Source: Nostoc sphaeroides
GTDB lineage: Bacteria > Cyanobacteriota > Cyanobacteriia > Cyanobacteriales > Nostocaceae
Assembly: GCF_003443655.1 (NCBI RefSeq)
Contig: NZ_CP031941.1
Location: forward strand, 3,842,501 to 3,906,500
DNA: 64,000 nt
Reading direction: 5' to 3'
Shown here: positions 14,723 to 40,293 of the stretch, one piece after another
How the letters are laid out: each line of letters opens with the position of its first letter
Position numbering within the stretch: the stretch's first letter is position 1
Notes under the pieces: generated by a model
The model's database searches: none
Seen by the model: only the letters and a program-made list of their open reading frames with translations
What the model was told of the DNA's origin: nothing
Translations under genes and position numbers: made by a program

Positions 14723-15133
14723 ACTGGAATTAGGGAGCAGGGGGAGATGAACTATTGATTATTGACCAATGCCCAATGCCCAATACCTCGACTTCGCTCA
14801 GTACAAGTGCCCAATGCCCAATGCCCAATGCCCATTCATAATAAATATTTATAATTTGTGACTGTAACCAACATTACCCCATCTACCCTTGAGATTTTGA
14901 TAATATTTAGCTTGTGAACTAATCCGCCGTCTAGACGGACGTAGTTCTCCCAATTCATCGGCAATACCTCCAGAACTCCGTAGTTCTATTGGTTTGACAT
15001 CCCTCGAAGGGCAGAAGTCTTGGTTCGCAAGACCCAAATCTTTTACCCGCAGCTCTGCCCTACTCCTTCCCTACGGGACGCTGTGCGAACGGAGAAGCTA
15101 GCTACGTGTAGCCTCCCATAGAGAACGGTTTTC
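14723..15133. repeat. Intergenic repeats after pilD
   Basis: CCCAATG 7-mers lie at about 14765-14832, interrupted by a short palindromic unit. Downstream, 15061-15125 holds another palindromic repeat (CCCTACGGGACGCTGTGCGAACGG). A 62-codon minus-strand frame at 14849-15037 is open but I cannot support it as a gene. Confidence 0.6.
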
Positions 15134-18547: not shown

Positions 18548-19219
18548 GGGACTTCCAAATAAAAAATATCCCATCCTTGCGGGACGCTACGCGTAGCTTG
18601 CTTCCCCAAAGGGTACGCTTTTAGGTCAGGGGAGCAGGGAGAGGAAAAGTCGTTTTAATTCCAAAAATTTAGATAATTTATTTTTTGAAGTTATTCTAAT
18701 AGGGTATGGTATCGGTTCTAAATTGCGTATAAGAAAAATACTCAGTATTTATCGGCTATGACTAAGACCTACTGCGATCGCTATTAATGACGGGAGTGAA
18801 TTATGCTATACCTTCGCAGATAAGTAAATATTCAGAGGCGATCGTGAATAATTTTGGTAATCAATTTGTCAGCGCCTTGTTGGGGTAACAATCTTTAAAG
18901 CAGATGATGCTGAAGGCACAGAATAAAGCAGAGCAACTAAATTTATTTATGGATAGATAAATTTTAAACTTTGCTTGGTTCAGAGCAAGCGGATTTATCC
19001 GTGGGCATTAATTGCGAATTGCGTTCGCGTTCGCGCAGCGTCTCGTAAAGAGAAACGAGCGTCATTGCGAATTGCGAATTGTGCTGACGCTGCGCTATGC
19101 GCTAAAGCGTCTCCCTGATTCCGGTTCGCCCCTTTTTAAGGTGGGTTATGGGGGATCAATAAGTGCCTAAAATTATAGCAAACCACTTTTCAAAAACCTC
19201 TTAAAACCCTACCTAACTT
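18548..19219. other. Gene-free stretch with repeats
   Basis: Palindromic repeat units (GGGACGCTACGCGTAGCTTG at about 18579) and GCGAATT-type repeats (19012-19075). No ORF or RNA gene is seen in the 18.2-19.2 kb interval. Confidence 0.6.
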
Positions 19220-21408: not shown

Positions 21409-21546
21409 CAATACGGTTCAGTTAAGGCTAAAACTCTTTGCCAAAGTCAATTTTTTTTACGTAGACGCGGAGCGGCTTGCCGCAGGCTACCACAGAGACG
21501 CAGAGGGCACCCAGAGAATAAAGAAATGCTTAACTGAACTGTATTG
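21409..21546. mobile_element. MITE, family 1, copy 2
   Basis: 138 bp with terminal inverted repeats CAATACGGTTCAGTTAAG and CTTAACTGAACTGTATTG (one mismatch). It is flanked by a perfect 10-bp duplication ATTTATAAGC (21399-21408 and 21547-21556). The core differs entirely from copy 1: it contains ACGTAGACGCGGAGCGG and CACAGAGACGCAGAGGGC. No ORF. Confidence 0.88.
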
Positions 21547-34448: not shown

Positions 34449-34784
34449 CTATCCAGCCAAACTCTCGACACTCAGAGGAACCATATCGCCATTCCTCGTC
34501 AGACCTAACAACATCGGTTCTTGGGGTTGAATTAGTTGACCTGTGAGTACACAGCGTTCTTCTTGCTGGGCTGTGGCAGCGATGCTAGCTCGAATGTCCG
34601 TTCGGGAAAATCGAGGCTTCCATTCACCTGATTTTTGCTGGACATAATTCCAAAGAATATCTCGGATTAAAGCTTGGTATCCCTGATTGCCAGCTATTTC
34701 TTTGAGCTTATCTTTCAGTTCCCGCTCTAGGCGGATGCTGGTAACTTCCATATCGGTGGTTGGGGTGCGAGCGATCGTATGCAT
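34449..34784 (-). CDS. Ribbon-helix-helix regulator-like protein
   Basis: 111 residues from ATG 34784, with AAGGAG 8-10 bases upstream. Residues 13-50, VTSIRLERELKDKLKEIAGNQGYQALIRDILWNYV, have the layout of an RHH (CopG/Arc) DNA-binding domain: a beta strand with alternating residues, helix, turn, helix. A second part (CVLTGQLIQPQEPMLLGLTRNGDMVPLSVESL) is unusual for the family. It is divergent from the small unit at 34856, so may regulate it. Confidence 0.7.
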   Translation of the reverse strand: MHTIARTPTTDMEVTSIRLERELKDKLKEIAGNQGYQALIRDILWNYVQQKSGEWKPRFSRTDIRASIAATAQQEERCVLTGQLIQPQEPMLLGLTRNGDMVPLSVESLAG

Positions 34785-34805
34785 CACTATTTCTCCTTAA
34801 AGGTA

Positions 34806-34834
34806 TAGACAAGATAGTAATACAAGTGTAGTAT
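34806..34834 (+). promoter_or_regulatory. Promoter of the 34856 unit
   Basis: -35 TAGACA (34806-34811), 17-bp spacer, -10 TAGTAT (34829-34834). The -10 and the TGTAGTAT around it are the same as in the tRNA-array promoter at 37300. Confidence 0.55.
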
Positions 34835-35188: not shown

Positions 35189-35749
35189 GTGACGATATCT
35201 TCTCTGCGAGACGCTACACGAACAATGCGCGGCGCGAACGCAATGCAAGTGTTAGAGCAATCTGTGGTGGTGTTTTCTCAAAATTACTTGCCACTGTGTC
35301 GGATCAATATCAAGCGGGCGATTGTGCTGTTATTAACAGACAAAGCTCAACCGCTAGGTTTTACCACAGAACAAGGATGGCGAGTTCACTCACCCAATTT
35401 GGTAATTGATGTGCCAAAACACATTCGCTTAACAGTTACTTCTAATGAGCGGATGTGGAAAATTCCGCCAGTGAATCGGCGGGAAGTGTTGCGACGAGAT
35501 AATCACACTTGTCAATACTGCGGTAGCGGCAAACATCTAACGCTAGATCATGTGATGCCGCGATCAAGAGGCGGTTCTCACACTTGGGATAACGTAGTCA
35601 CAGCTTGTGAGAAATGTAACTCCCGTAAAGGCGATCGCATCCTGTTTGAAGCTGGTATGCAACTGCGTACCAAGCCAAAAGCACCAATCCACCCCGCGAT
35701 TTCTTTCGCCGAACAGTTTTGGATCGATATGCAAGGAAGCCTGGAATAA
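35189..35749 (+). CDS. HNH endonuclease
   Basis: 186 residues from GTG 35189 with AAGGAG 8 bases before. The HNH domain is at about 100-165: CQYCGSGKHLTLDHVMPRSR, GGSHTWDNVVTACEKCN, with CxxC pairs and catalytic His in LDHV. The first 18 residues (SSLRDATRTMRGANA) are encoded by a copy of the CTCTGCGAGACGCTACACGA palindromic repeat; the conserved part starts at MQVLEQSVVVFSQNYLP. Cyanobacterial genomes hold many such small HNH genes of unknown role. Confidence 0.9.
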   Translation: MTISSLRDATRTMRGANAMQVLEQSVVVFSQNYLPLCRINIKRAIVLLLTDKAQPLGFTTEQGWRVHSPNLVIDVPKHIRLTVTSNERMWKIPPVNRREVLRRDNHTCQYCGSGKHLTLDHVMPRSRGGSHTWDNVVTACEKCNSRKGDRILFEAGMQLRTKPKAPIHPAISFAEQFWIDMQGSLE

Positions 35750-37299: not shown

Positions 37300-37337
37300 T
37301 TGACACCTCTTGTAGTATTTTGTAGTATAAATGTAGT
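37300..37337 (+). promoter_or_regulatory. Promoter and TGTAGT iterons of the tRNA array
   Basis: -35 TTGACA (37300-37305), 17-bp spacer and -10 TAGTAT (37323-37328) make a near-consensus sigma-70 promoter. TGTAGT is repeated at 37311, 37321 and 37332, spaced 10 and 11 bp, on one helix face, across the -10: an operator candidate. Confidence 0.72.
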
Positions 37338-37686: not shown

Positions 37687-37779
37687 CGGGGTGTAGCTCA
37701 ACTGGCTAGAGCGTTCCGTTGTCTGCGGAAATGTTGCGGGTAACCTGTGGGAAGCAAGCTATAAGTCCTGTCACCCTGG
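37687..37779 (+). tRNA. tRNA-Asp (GTC), T-loop insertion
   Basis: Acceptor CGGGGTG/CACCCTG, D-stem GCTC/GAGC, anticodon stem TTCCG/CGGAA with loop TTGTCTG (GTC). T-stem GCGGG/CCTGT holds a 26-nt loop instead of 7: the extra bases ACCTGTGGGAAGCAAGCT match the palindromic repeat family. Position 37 is T, also odd. Confidence 0.72.
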
Positions 37780-37783
37780 TTGC

Positions 37784-37857
37784 AGTCCTGTAGGCGAATA
37801 GTTTAAGCCGTCAGCCTCTCAAGCTGAAGATTGCGAGTGCGAATCTCGTCGGGACTC
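37784..37857 (+). tRNA. tRNA-Glu (CTC)
   Basis: Acceptor AGTCCTG/CGGGACT, anticodon loop CTCTCAA, T-arm GCGAG TGCGAAT CTCGT. The T-loop starts TGC instead of TTC. Confidence 0.8.
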
Positions 37858-37863
37858 TCAAAT

Positions 37864-37936
37864 GGCTGAGTAGCCAAGTGGTCGAAGGCGTCGGTCTGCA
37901 AAACCGATATCGTGAGTTCAAATCTCACCTCAGCCT
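37864..37936 (+). tRNA. tRNA-Cys (GCA)
   Basis: Acceptor GGCTGAG/CTCAGCC, anticodon loop CTGCAAA, T-loop TTCAAAT. Well formed. Confidence 0.88.
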
Positions 37937-37947
37937 CTGGTGCTTTC

Positions 37948-38020
37948 CGCAGTGTAGCTTAACCAGCAAAGCCCCAGGTTCATACCCTGGTATATGCGGG
38001 TGCAAATCCCGCCACTGCCA
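37948..38020 (+). tRNA. tRNA-Met/Ile2 (CAT)
   Basis: Anticodon stem CCAGG/CCTGG with loop TTCATAC; acceptor CGCAGTG/CACTGCC with a mismatch at the first pair. T-loop TGCAAAT. CCA is encoded (38021-38023). Could be elongator Met or lysidine-type Ile. Confidence 0.75.
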
Positions 38021-38026
38021 CCAAAT

Positions 38027-38098
38027 GCAGGGATGGTGTAACGGTAACACCTCGTGACTCCAAATCCGATGTTCTAGGTTCAAATCCTAGTCCCTGTG
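38027..38098 (+). tRNA. tRNA-Trp (CCA), bulged anticodon stem
   Basis: Acceptor GCAGGGA/TCCCTGT and T-arm CTAGG TTCAAAT CCTAG are good. The anticodon loop CTCCAAA gives CCA, but the stem pairs only as TCG(T)GA with TCCGA, leaving one bulged T. Confidence 0.7.
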
Positions 38099-38167
38099 TC
38101 AGACAATTTTAGATTAAATAATTTAATCCAAAATCTAAAATTTAAAATCTAAAATTCAGTCAATTAT
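38099..38167. repeat. AT-rich repeat inside the array
   Basis: TAATCCAAAATCTAAAATTT and similar direct repeats separate two tRNA genes; the same motif (ATCCAAAATCCAAAATTTAA) is at 36275-36305. Confidence 0.6.
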
Positions 38168-38239
38168 GCCCTCGTGGACGAATGGTTAAGTCAGTGTTCT
38201 TTCAAAGCACAGATGCGAGTTCAATTCTCGTCGAGGGAA
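38168..38239 (+). tRNA. tRNA-Glu (TTC), array copy
   Basis: Anticodon loop CTTTCAA. Acceptor GCCCTCG/CGAGGGA has a G-A mismatch at the first pair. T-arm GCGAG TTCAATT CTCGT. Confidence 0.78.
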
Positions 38240-38246
38240 TAATTAT

Positions 38247-38319
38247 GGGTCGGTGGCCGAGTCTGGCTGAAGGCGACAGTCTGTAAAACTGTTCTTTTTT
38301 GCACGCAGGTTCAGACCCA
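38247..38319 (+). tRNA. tRNA-Tyr (GTA), T-arm deleted
   Basis: Acceptor start GGGTCGG and anticodon stem ACAGT/ACTGT with loop CTGTAAA are fine. The 3' part GCAGGTTCAGACCCA lacks about 10 bases of the T-arm, so the 3' T-stem strand is missing. Likely a pseudo-tRNA. Confidence 0.65.
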
Positions 38320-38323
38320 CTAT

Positions 38324-38411
38324 GGAGAGGTGGCTGAGTGGCCTAAAGCGTCCTCCTGCTAAGAGGAAACGGGTAGTTTACCCGTCACAGGTTCAAATCC
38401 TGTTCTCTCCG
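38324..38411 (+). tRNA. tRNA-Ser (GCT), array copy
   Basis: Class II with a long variable arm (ACGGGTAGTTTACCCGT). Acceptor GGAGAGG/TCTCTCC, anticodon loop CTGCTAA, T-loop TTCAAAT. Well formed. A second Ser(GCT) gene is at 45900. Confidence 0.9.
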
Positions 38412-38415
38412 CTTT

Positions 38416-38490
38416 GAGAGTGTGGTGTAACTGGATAACATCTCAGTCTACGAAACTGAAGACGTGAGGGTTCAAATCCCTCCGCTCTCG
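38416..38490 (+). tRNA. tRNA-Arg (ACG)
   Basis: Acceptor GAGAGTG/CGCTCTC, anticodon loop CTACGAA (A34 would be edited to inosine), T-arm TGAGGG TTCAAAT CCCTC. Confidence 0.88.
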
Positions 38491-38511
38491 TTACATAATC
38501 TCTTCTTTTAT

Positions 38512-38586
38512 CCCCCGGTAGCTCAGTTGGTAGTTAGCGCCTGTCTGAAGAACAGGAGGTCGTCGGTTCGATTCCGACCTGGGGGG
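38512..38586 (+). tRNA. tRNA-Phe (GAA)
   Basis: Acceptor CCCCCGG/CTGGGGG, anticodon stem CCTGT/ACAGG with loop CTGAAGA, T-arm GTCGG TTCGATT CCGAC. D-loop slightly long. Confidence 0.87.
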
Positions 38587-38592
38587 CTTCGT

Positions 38593-38664
38593 TGCCTCAT
38601 AGCTCAATGGTAGAGCAAGCGGCTGTTAACCGCGCGGTTGTAGGTTCGAGTCCTACTGAGGCAG
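38593..38664 (+). tRNA. tRNA-Asn (GTT)
   Basis: Acceptor TGCCTCA/TGAGGCA, anticodon loop CTGTTAA, T-arm GTAGG TTCGAGT CCTAC. CCA is encoded (38665-38667). Well formed. Confidence 0.9.
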
Positions 38665-38667
38665 CCA

Positions 38668-38817
38668 ATCATAATTCGTAATTATTAATTCGTAATTTGT
38701 AATTAAACAAGGGTTTATACCCACGTTTTTATAAATGGCTTGTATGTTAGTCGGGGTTAAAATCACTCTCAAAAAACATAATTACGAATTACGAACTACG
38801 AATTACGAATTGTTTAA
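38668..38817. repeat. TTCGTAATT / ATTACGAA repeats inside the array
   Basis: Inverted groups of AATTCGTAATT and ATTACGAATT units bracket a 90-bp AT-rich spacer, separating the tRNAs into two blocks. The same unit is at 485-508. Confidence 0.65.
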
Positions 38818-38890
38818 TGCCGGGTGGACGAATTGGTAAGTCGCATCGCTCTGAACGATGAGGTTGCAGGTTCAAACCCTGCCCTGGCAA
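38818..38890 (+). tRNA. tRNA-Gln (CTG)
   Basis: Acceptor TGCCGGG/CCTGGCA, anticodon stem CATCG/CGATG with loop CTCTGAA, T-arm GCAGG TTCAAAC CCTGC. Confidence 0.87.
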
Positions 38891-38893
38891 TAA

Positions 38894-38966
38894 AGCCCTA
38901 TGGTGTAATTGGCAACATAGCGCCCTTTGAAGGCGAAGATTCCAGGTTCGAGTCCTGGCGGGGCTG
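38894..38966 (+). tRNA. tRNA-Gln (TTG)
   Basis: Acceptor AGCCCTA/CGGGGCT (last pair mismatched), loop CTTTGAA, T-arm CCAGG TTCGAGT CCTGG, CCA encoded. Confidence 0.85.
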
Positions 38967-38974
38967 CCAAACCT

Positions 38975-39074
38975 GCTCTTGTAGCCCAACTGGAAGAGGC
39001 TGCCGTCTCAAAAACGGTATGTTGTGGGTACCCTGCGGGAAGCCGCTCTGCGTCTACAATTCCCACCAAGAGTA
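38975..39074 (+). tRNA. tRNA with Leu anticodon (CAA), class I body, T-loop insertion
   Basis: Acceptor GCTCTTG/CAAGAGT, CCA encoded; anticodon loop CTCAAAA gives CAA. The body has a short variable loop, unlike normal tRNA-Leu (class II). T-stem GTGGG/CCCAC encloses a 33-nt loop; the additional 26 bases (ACCCTGCGGGAAGCCGCTCT...) match the palindromic repeat family. Confidence 0.68.
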
Positions 39075-39083
39075 CCAAAACTT

Positions 39084-39159
39084 GCTCCTGTAGCCCAATT
39101 GGAAAAGATGGCAGACTTAAAATCTGTTTGTTTGTGGGTTCAACTCCCACTCTTGTGTA
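39084..39159 (+). tRNA. tRNA with Leu anticodon (TAA), class I body, weak acceptor
   Basis: Anticodon stem CAGA/TCTG, loop CTTAAAA, T-arm GTGGG TTCAACT CCCAC. The acceptor GCTCCTG pairs poorly with the 3' side CTTGTGT (about 4 of 7). No long variable arm and no group I intron, unlike ordinary cyanobacterial tRNA-Leu(TAA). Confidence 0.62.
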
Positions 39160-39163
39160 CCAA

Positions 39164-39236
39164 CGGGATGTAATTCAGTGGCCAGAAGCCATGCTTTGGG
39201 AGCATGGAGTCGCAGGTTCAAATCCTGCCATCCCGA
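39164..39236 (+). tRNA. tRNA-Pro (TGG)
   Basis: Acceptor CGGGATG/CATCCCG, anticodon loop TTTGGGA, T-arm GCAGG TTCAAAT CCTGC. Well formed. Confidence 0.88.
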
Positions 39237-39239
39237 TAT

Positions 39240-39312
39240 GCCCTTGTAGCCCAACGGAAGAGGCGCTTCGCTTAGAACGAAGAGGTTGCTGGTTCAAATC
39301 CAGTCAGGGGTA
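39240..39312 (+). tRNA. tRNA with Leu anticodon (TAG), class I body
   Basis: Acceptor GCCCTTG/CAGGGGT, anticodon stem CTTCG/CGAAG with loop CTTAGAA, 5-nt variable loop, T-arm GCTGG TTCAAAT CCAGT. All stems pair, yet bacterial tRNA-Leu should be class II. Confidence 0.75.
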
Positions 39313-39322
39313 TTGGTGAATA

Positions 39323-39397
39323 TGCGGGGATAGAGCAACGGTGGCTCGTGGGGCTGCATAACCTGAATATCGGCAGGTTCGACTCCTGCCCCGGTCA
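39323..39397 (+). tRNA. Initiator-Met-like tRNA (CAT), 8-nt anticodon loop
   Basis: GCGGGG, the GAGC/GCTC D-stem and GCATAACC are like tRNA-fMet, with one extra G in the loop (CTGCATAA) and a weak stem TGGGG/CCTGA. T-arm GCAGG TTCGACT CCTGC is good; the acceptor does not pair well with CCCGGTC. CCA encoded. If the loop is 7 nt the anticodon would read GCA. Confidence 0.55.
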
Positions 39398-39408
39398 CCA
39401 AAATTAGT

Positions 39409-39481
39409 GCTGGTGTAGCTCAATTGGCAGAGCAACTGACTTGTAATCAGTAGGTTGCAGGTTCAATTCCTGTTACCAGCT
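39409..39481 (+). tRNA. tRNA-Thr (TGT)
   Basis: Acceptor GCTGGTG/TACCAGC, loop CTTGTAA, T-arm GCAGG TTCAATT CCTGT. Well formed. Confidence 0.9.
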
Positions 39482-39485
39482 TGAT

Positions 39486-39557
39486 GCGGGTGTGATGTAA
39501 TCGGTAGCATCTGAGTACGCCATACTCAGTGCGTGGGTTCAAGTCCCTCCACTCGCT
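39486..39557 (+). tRNA. tRNA-Gly (GCC), C33
   Basis: Acceptor GCGGGTG/CACTCGC, stem TGAGT/ACTCA with loop ACGCCAT. Position 33, almost always T, is C. T-stem GTGGG/CCCTC has one mismatch. Confidence 0.78.
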
Positions 39558-39562
39558 TGCGT

Positions 39563-39635
39563 AGTCCTGTAGCTCAATTGGTAGAGTGTCTTCCTTACAA
39601 GAAGAATGTTGCGGGTTCAATTCCTGCCAGGACTA
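39563..39635 (+). tRNA. tRNA-Val (TAC)
   Basis: Acceptor AGTCCTG/CAGGACT, loop CTTACAA, T-arm GCGGG TTCAATT CCTGC, CCA encoded. Confidence 0.9.
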
Positions 39636-39644
39636 CCAAATATT

Positions 39645-39718
39645 GGGAGTGTAGCTCAATGGAATAGAGCTTCGAGCTTCTACCTCGAAAGTTGTAGGTT
39701 CAAGTCCTACCACTCCCG
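39645..39718 (+). tRNA. tRNA-Arg (TCT)
   Basis: Acceptor GGGAGTG/CACTCCC, stem TCGAG/CTCGA with loop CTTCTAC, T-arm GTAGG TTCAAGT CCTAC. Confidence 0.88.
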
Positions 39719-39821
39719 CCTAAACAAGTCAAAAGTCAAAAGTCAAAAAAAAGAATTTAATTATTTTTTTTTCTTTAGTACTCTTTAGTATTTTTTATTC
39801 TGCTCTTTTCACTTGTTTGAT

Positions 39822-39895
39822 GGGGTCATAGCTCAAATGGCTAGAGCGCCTGCCTTGCAAGCAGGAGGTTATGGGTTCAATTCCCATTGATTCCA
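39822..39895 (+). tRNA. tRNA-Ala (TGC)
   Basis: Acceptor GGGGTCA/TGATTCC with the G3-U70 pair that AlaRS reads, loop CTTGCAA, T-arm ATGGG TTCAATT CCCAT. Confidence 0.9.
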
Positions 39896-39900
39896 CTGAT

Positions 39901-39975
39901 GGTGTCTGAGGCCAAAGTGGTCGAGGCGCTGGTTTGTGGAACCAGTCATAGCGGGTTCAAGTCCCGTCAGATACC
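39901..39975 (+). tRNA. tRNA-His (GTG)
   Basis: Extra G at -1 opposite C73, acceptor GTGTCTG/CAGATAC, stem CTGGT/ACCAG with loop TTGTGGA, T-arm GCGGG TTCAAGT CCCGT. Confidence 0.88.
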
Positions 39976-39982
39976 CTTGAAT

Positions 39983-40065
39983 GGAAGATGCTGCTGAATG
40001 GACGGCAACTGGTCTTGAAAACCAGGGTATGGGCAACTGTAGGGGTTCAATTCCTCCATCTTCCT
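39983..40065 (+). tRNA. tRNA-Ser (TGA)
   Basis: Class II with a variable arm; acceptor GGAAGAT/ATCTTCC, stem CTGGT/ACCAG with loop CTTGAAA. Confidence 0.85.
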
Positions 40066-40070
40066 CTTTT

Positions 40071-40142
40071 CCACCTGAAGCCGAAAAGCAAGGCGCTGTG
40101 CTGATAACACAGAAATAGGAGGGGCAGTACCTCCCTGGTGGA
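40071..40142 (+). tRNA. tRNA-Ile (GAT), aberrant T-loop
   Basis: Acceptor CCACCTG/CTGGTGG (one mismatch), stem CTGTG/CACAG with loop CTGATAA, T-stem GGAGG/CCTCC. The T-loop is GGCAGTA instead of TTCRANT. Confidence 0.7.
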
Positions 40143-40222
40143 TTCATCTCTAGTGTTGGTGTTACAAGACTTGCAATGTAAGTATACGATCGCATTTGCC
40201 CATTTCTTATTTAAATTAACTA

Positions 40223-40293
40223 GGGTGGTTGGCATAACGGCTGTGCAGCAGGCTTTTAACCCGCAGAAATAGGTTCGACCCCTATACCACCCA
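40223..40293 (+). tRNA. tRNA-Lys (TTT)
   Basis: Acceptor GGGTGGT/ACCACCC, stem GCAGG/CCCGC with one mismatch and loop CTTTTAA, T-loop TTCGACC. It ends next to the nagZ stop codon, on the opposite strand. Last member of the array. Confidence 0.83.

Follow-up and report, generated by a model that had tools for sequence, protein, structure and literature searches.

The inserts in the T-loops of two tRNA genes of the analyzed window, a 64,000-nt stretch of a Nostoc sphaeroides chromosomal contig, are most probably (at roughly 0.78) copies of a mobile repeat of about 20-27 nt that forms two hairpins and inserts at the site TT|CR. Such T-loop inserts constitute a class and are not confined to these two genes. 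The observations behind this reading include an anatomy that the copies share and that is kept by compensatory changes, sites found both empty and filled, a TTCR rule that holds inside as well as outside tRNA genes, nesting, and copies in both orientations. In the best reading of these data, mini mobile elements resembling small dispersed repeats (SDR) would parasitise a redundant stress tRNA operon: a unit consisting of two hairpins in tandem, with A/T bases on either side, would insert at TT|CR and, recurrently, at the TTCR of the T-loop.

Both interrupted genes, for tRNA-Asp(GTC) and tRNA-Leu(CAA), are located in a tRNA gene array of the trn-operon type (37687-40293, plus strand). Neither gene was called in the window by ARAGORN or Rfam; both were recovered by a descriptor search that allowed the T-loop to grow. 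The Asp(GTC) gene (37687-37779, plus strand; descriptor score 20.3) gave a split alignment with 96% identity to the intact gene of genome G010. Its T-stem (37736-37740 and 37767-37771) pairs as GCGGG/CCTGT, including two G-U pairs, and encloses a T-loop of 26 nt (37741-37766). U55 of this gene is replaced by a 20-nt element (37742-37761, plus strand) of the type herein referred to as E19, with the order A-hairpin 1-A-AGCAAGCT-A. Hairpin 1 is decayed in this copy, with ACCCTNCGGGAAGCAAGCTA found at the same place in relatives, and C56 is changed to T as well. The Leu(CAA) gene (38975-39074, plus strand), found by the descriptor search and by split alignment, has a T-stem at 39024-39028 and 39062-39066 and a T-loop of 33 nt (39029-39061), in which U55 is replaced by a 27-nt element (39030-39056, plus strand) of type E26 (A-hairpin 1-AAGC-hairpin 2-TCTA). 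When the two genes are split-aligned to intact counterparts in other genomes, 19 extra bases result for Asp(GTC) and 26 for Leu(CAA), and the positions and insert sizes reported for these loops in an earlier note on this DNA are right. The T-stem and acceptor pairing that it described is possible in both genes, given the two G-U pairs in the Asp T-stem. It had placed the inserts directly after the first T of the loop; T54 does precede them, but more exactly the inserted unit is A...TA and replaces U55 within TTCR.

The same tRNA genes with empty T-loops of 7 bases were found in relatives. Among 59 genomes (the own genome and 58 relatives), the Asp query had matches in 29 and the Leu query in 40, many of the Leu matches being the repeat alone. 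For comparison with the window, 31 stretches from the same genus were used. Filled Asp(GTC) genes were listed for 8 genomes and intact ones for 25; the intact genes of three of these (G027, G028, and G031) are very different and may represent another Asp gene. For Leu(CAA), the corresponding numbers are 9 and 24. The sequence is T-(A...TA)-C(A/G)AN(T) in filled loops and mostly TTC(A/G)AN(T) in empty ones. Because these inserts recur in many genomes and empty counterparts exist, an assembly artefact or chance was rejected. Scars of excision, that is, 7-nt loops reading TAC, were found in none of 838 intact loops. The 5' half of the window Asp gene is identical to that of the Asp genes of 6 other genomes, and its T-arm differs from the commonest filled relative by four changes in the loop and one in the T-stem; thus, the T-arm of this copy is drifting.

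In total, 48 distinct loop sequences were found, and the parsed ones mostly have the order T-A-hairpin 1 (loop usually TNC)-A-hairpin 2-(T)A-C. Three types were distinguished: E19 (A CCC TNC GGG A AGCAAGCT A), E26 (A CCC TNC GGG AAGC CGC TNN GCG TCTA), and E21 (hairpin 1-A-CGC TNN GCG-AA), with unit lengths of 20, 27, and 21-23 nt, respectively. Hairpin 2 of E19 (AGC AA GCT) is weak. The two sides of the stems vary in step, giving CCC/GGG, CTC/GAG, GCC/GGC, CTGC/GCAG, and CCGC/GCGG. For E26, 20 sequences were compared, comprising the 29-nt E26 loops and four from a pattern requiring a paired hairpin 1, with irregular loops of other length excluded. Pairing was found in 160 of 160 cells, with double changes in three pairs and invariant outer T-A pairs. 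The covariation score was matched by none of 500 shuffles, and pairing fell to 17-53% when the partners were slid by one to three columns; one of the five measures, the number of further pair types, was not above the shuffles (336 of 500). Longer inserts of 40, 47, and 61 nt are nested, with one element lying within the loop of another, and element copies occur in both orientations.

Outside the array, the window contains an E26-type copy with hairpin 1 GCC/GGC (21462-21488, minus strand), an E21-type copy (hairpin 1-A-hairpin 2-AA) located in CTT|CG (15069-15089, plus strand), and an intergenic E19-type copy (18594-18614, minus strand). The last is the palindromic repeat to which the inserts had been related in the earlier note on the basis of a shared motif, and this kinship holds, both inserts carrying that motif and being members of the same family. 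The alternative that the loops share their sequence in orthologous arrays with no tie to any repeat does not agree with this membership.

The element copies follow a simple target rule. All 113 copies parsed in the selected fetched loci are followed by C and A/G, and 108 of the 113 are preceded by T. The bare E19 core, a set picked independently of flanks, was found in 83 copies in 59 genomes, all of this genus. T before and CR after the core were found in 76 of these 83 (1 in 32 expected by chance), and the rule is broken by the other 7. These 76 copies are not 76 events, because many non-tRNA copies multiplied within larger repeats; when each distinct context outside T-arms is taken once, 27 of 34 obey the rule (counted by eye). 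Empty and filled states were also found in two other repeats. The palindromic repeat GTAGGGGCAATTCATGAATTGCCC occurs empty in 14 listed matches, which represent 10 places in the own genome since palindromic copies are listed twice, and its filled copies (L176, L178, and L180) have T-E26-C in place of TTC. A second palindromic repeat, TGTTGGGTTTCGTTCCTCAACCCAA, was found in 82 empty copies in 7 of 8 relatives; it is filled in L329 (G022) and L337 (G028), both in genomes that have empty copies too, and in L340 (G004), a genome without empty copies. These filled copies read TT-E19-CG where the empty ones read TTTCG. Thus, in TTCR, E19 and E26 take the place of the second T, and E21, when nested, enters TT|C without loss of a base. 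The loss of one target T in E19 and E26 insertions is not accounted for by plain insertion.

This rule goes far to explain why two tRNA genes are interrupted at the same point. With the T-loop sequence T54-U55-C56-R57, a ready target is present at one point of nearly every tRNA gene, which explains the identical insertion point. The 830 intact array tRNAs contain 1441 TTCR/YGAA sites, of which 823 fall at T-loop positions 55|56, so that all but 7 of the genes carry the target there. The site preference proposed in the earlier note is therefore real and is largely explained by the TT|CR target. In 32 Nostoc stretches, 41 of 52 readable element sites in tRNA genes are in the T-loop, compared with 57% expected by target counts; the 41 comprise 39 sites found by a script with a restrictive pattern and 2 found among 23 further rows sorted by eye (two pairs of these rows being the same place), and the 52 sites are not independent events. 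Of the remaining sites, the Phe anticodon loop, the D-loop of Ser(TGA), and the anticodon-stem end of Arg(ACG) have 3 each, all of them antisense to the tRNA, and the anticodon stem of Leu(TAG) has 2 (sorted by eye). TTCR/YGAA sites number 59 in the 2607 bases of the array and 977 in the 64,000 bases of the window, which corresponds to an only about 1.5-fold higher density in the array. Yet T-arms of array tRNAs or Y-like genes contain 31 of the 83 E19 cores (counted by hand), so target density is insufficient as a full explanation. The excess in T-arms may be partly due to retention and partly to a preference for T-arms.

T-loop inserts are present in many filamentous cyanobacteria. For the descriptor search, 85 loci were fetched and one duplicate was dropped, leaving 84, which were analyzed together with the window array. 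At a score of at least 18, 104 interrupted candidates were obtained; 2 of locus L124, which duplicates L163, were dropped, as were 7 that span two genes and have anticodon loops above 60 nt. Of the remaining candidates, 88 have the insert in the T-loop, in genes representing 23 anticodons, and 7 have it in the anticodon loop of apparent Phe genes. The 88 T-loop inserts represent no rate, because many loci were picked by their T-loop pattern, and two of the loops have 117 and 129 nt, the latter probably covering two genes. All 88 loops start with TA, and 87 have AC ahead of the last four bases. The earlier note had suggested a search of other Nostoc genomes for T-loop repeats, and these are present in many: the insert pattern was found in 63 of 217 genomes of the family, belonging to 15 of 56 genera, with no matches for the reversed control. 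In a collection of 84,980 species, the pattern was found in 64 stretches, all with cyanobacterial titles. Judging by name, 8 of these probably belong outside Nostocales (Leptolyngbya, Leptolyngbyaceae, Pantanalinema, Stenomitos, Cyanosarcina, Scytolyngbya, and Lyngbya). An interrupted tRNA was confirmed by the descriptor in 5 of the 8 (L224, L239, L250, L266, and L283); in the other 3, the surroundings of the pattern are T-arm-like and no tRNA was scored.

Alternatives to insertion at TT|CR concern both the nature of the target and the way of spreading. The target could be a folded T-arm hairpin loop, as RNA or single-stranded DNA, instead of TTCR alone. The share of E19 cores in T-arms agrees with this possibility, as do the empty sites of the two other repeats, which are palindromic with TTCR near the centre, and the nested hits, which are in hairpin loops. 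Nevertheless, the Leu(TAG) and Arg(ACG) hits are in stems or at a stem end, and flank complementarity in the 34 distinct contexts outside T-arms did not reach significance, the mean being attained in 110 of 2000 permutations; a folded target is thus possible and rather doubtful. Targeting of tRNA transcripts only is weakened by the antisense hits in Phe, Arg(ACG), and Ser(TGA) and by the hits in palindromic repeats outside tRNAs, and the presence of hits on both strands of tRNA genes favours a step at the DNA level over insertion into a tRNA transcript. Recombination or gene conversion between T-loops of the array, in place of a separate insertion each time, would be facilitated by dense arrays with similar T-arms, and the Ser(TGA) copies in 8 genomes share, where readable, the element version CCCTACGGG. 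Such spread is nonetheless quite unlikely to be the main route, since element types differ in the same tRNA across lineages (37 anticodon-by-type combinations), the T-stem sequences on both sides are tRNA-specific, and the same TTCR junction is found outside tRNAs.

A further group of alternatives holds that the interrupted tRNAs are functional, as the earlier note had suggested by proposing an RNA that is spliced or tolerated. If the insert were a tolerated helical extension of the T-arm and the genes were kept by selection, inserted halves should be conserved, and for Leu(CAA) they are: mean divergence is 0.027 for inserted and 0.040 for intact genes, which is unexpected under a plain pseudogene view. 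Recent insertion would also account for conserved halves. Additionally, the window Asp T-arm can still pair through G-U despite its changes, although the descriptor's own selection favours pairing. In the classes set by anticodon, which may mix paralogues, divergence is higher in inserted than in intact halves for Cys, Tyr, Leu(CAG), Pro(CGG), and Gly(TCC), and also for Asp (0.023 versus 0.005) when three odd intact genes are left out, making 6 of 7 comparable classes. An apparent equal conservation of inserted and intact Asp genes (0.023 versus 0.062) was rejected as an artefact of these three genes. Broken stem pairs are commoner in inserted genes in 5 of the 7 classes, and U55 is lost. Folding, for which the earlier note had envisaged a model of the insert as a helical extension, instead predicts a disturbed T-stem: only 19 of 84 distinct inserted tRNAs keep it in the minimum-energy fold, and its mean predicted probability is 0.194 with the natural insert, 0.246 with a shuffled one (p = 0.997), and 0.712 without insert. 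Natural inserts are thus no better than shuffled ones, and an adaptation of the insert to the T-arm was rejected. In single folds, the T-stem was lost in Leu and in the Tyr of L062, and kept in Asp. On sequence evidence, toleration leans to no, the interrupted tRNAs look mostly impaired, and maintenance as working tRNAs is unlikely. Even less probable, and in our view very improbable, is that the inserts are T-loop introns which are cut out, with the ends resealed, perhaps by RtcB, to give functional tRNAs. A 7-base loop (TAC...) would result if 19 or 26 bases were removed, and Leu(CAA) of G170 has a 117-nt T-loop with well-kept halves. The available text on Anabaena PCC 7120 describes rtcB as another target of TrcR, placing it and the trn operon under one regulator (PMC10272220). 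This setting makes splicing testable, yet not likely: the own-genome rtcB locus (4.1 kb) has no exact TGTAGTAT, the TrcR box, and only TGTAGTAC; Rfam, applied to the window at gathering scores, gave tRNA only, with no intron family; and the same elements are found in non-RNA repeats and, within tRNA genes, in antisense orientation. If the intron reading were true, stress operons of many cyanobacteria would carry removable T-loop inserts.

For the mobile repeat, the regulatory setting of the array offers a possible reason for persistence. Two TGTAGTAT boxes were found upstream of the array (at 37311 and 37321; 37311-37328, plus strand), corresponding to the TrcR site that the available text reports for the trn operon of Anabaena PCC 7120 (PMC10272220), so that the operator feature of a TrcR-controlled trn operon, TGTAGTAT at the promoter, is present in the window. 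A third box at 34827 lies ahead of a gene for a small protein (34449-34787, minus strand), which looks RHH-like by eye and has no Pfam match. In Anabaena PCC 7120, as far as the available text describes it, TrcR silences the trn operon through the TGTAGTAT box, and the operon responds to translational stress (PMC10272220). Intact genes for Asp(GTC) and Leu(CAA) are present at other places of the own genome, which renders the array copies dispensable; its 40 listed housekeeping tRNAs are uninterrupted, as listed by a search that is blind to interrupted genes. The survival of element copies in the array may therefore be due to its duplication of housekeeping tRNAs and, judging from the Anabaena literature, to its being normally silent, while hits in housekeeping tRNAs would be purged. 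The interrupted tRNAs would then be mostly impaired and slowly decaying, and probably not spliced.

These results provide a clear target rule, TT|CR, for a mini mobile element and make one of the most conserved tRNA loops a recurrent landing site, for which many aligned empty and filled T-loops provide a natural assay. Redundant tRNA arrays appear as a refuge for such elements. The results also flag a class of tRNA genes overlooked here by ARAGORN and Rfam and enable direct tests of whether interrupted tRNAs are processed, charged, spliced, or dead.

Known tRNA introns include the archaeal BHB introns and the cyanobacterial group I intron of tRNA-Leu(UAA). They resemble the inserts described here in being extra sequence within a tRNA gene whose halves are able to pair, and differ in that the repeat is located in the T-loop and is also dispersed in non-RNA places. 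To our knowledge, there is no known splicing signal for T-loop inserts, and no group I or II intron was found in the window by Rfam at gathering scores. The trn operon of Anabaena PCC 7120, according to the available text, is likewise a long redundant tRNA array with TGTAGTAT at its promoter, but it is located on a plasmid, whereas the array studied here is on a chromosomal contig (PMC10272220). T-loop inserts are not mentioned in that available text, and the word "insertion" is absent from its main text (PMC10272220). In the titles and abstract openings of the literature searched, no repeats in tRNA T-loops were described; such inserts may already have been published.

The closest resemblance is to the SDR, which Elhai et al. 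reportedly described in 2008 in Nostoc punctiforme as structured, nested repeats of 21-27 nt with an exact insertion site. By their described features, SDR share with E19, E26, and E21 a unit length of about 21-27 nt (here 20, 27, and 21-23 nt), a structure kept by compensatory changes (here in 20 E26 sequences and in 48 loops), self-nesting (here inserts of 40, 47, and 61 nt), a host range of Nostoc and relatives, and an exact insertion site. The available account of SDR5 places its insertion between bases 3 and 4 of HIP1 (PMC4390886), and thus its target differs from the TT|CR of the elements studied here, for which the tRNA T-loop is a conspicuous home. REP elements with GTAG or CGTC tags are described in the available text as palindromes of 20-40 bp in filamentous cyanobacteria, found also inside other palindromes (PMC3733652). 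The complement of E19 and E26 together with the target C reads GTAG..., and E21 types have no GTAG end.

In the array of tRNA genes in the window, the Tyr(GTA) gene (38251-38322) has a T-arm from which about 10 bases are missing, as judged by eye against relatives. Tyr genes are among the most frequently filled in relatives, that is, found with an element in the T-loop. A gene for an HNH endonuclease (PF14279) is located upstream of the array, at window positions 35189-35749. Annotated HNH genes were also found upstream of the arrays in two Nostoc plasmids, at positions 635-1171 of locus L123 and 602-1138 of locus L124.

In the Pantanalinema array (L239), five T-loop inserts were found, with hairpin 1 formed by CCGC/GCGG. 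The Phe T-loop of this array holds one antisense insert.

A different palindromic element, 45-116 nt in length, is located in the anticodon loop of array genes for Glu(CTC), at about position 33/34. This element was found in 7 of the 32 Nostoc stretches scanned (L069, L071, L073, L077, L078, L084, and L085). In these seven stretches, the halves of the interrupted genes are 96-100% like intact genes.

A second kind of array consists of tandem tRNA-like genes and was found at ten loci (L145, L146, L148, L149, L154, L164, L129, L131, L140, and L314) as well as in the own genome (L219, G000:C1:5203500-5207500). These genes have acceptor, D, and T arms, the anticodon arm being replaced by a conserved stretch, CATCCTT...GGGTTATCG. 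At each of the ten loci, one tRNA-like gene carries E19 or E26, two types of small mobile repeat, in its T-arm. The own genome has a Ro60/TROVE gene with four core motifs directly upstream of it. The tRNA-like genes resemble YrlA Y RNAs (RF02553); their highest score is 50.6 bits, short of the 69 set as cut-off.
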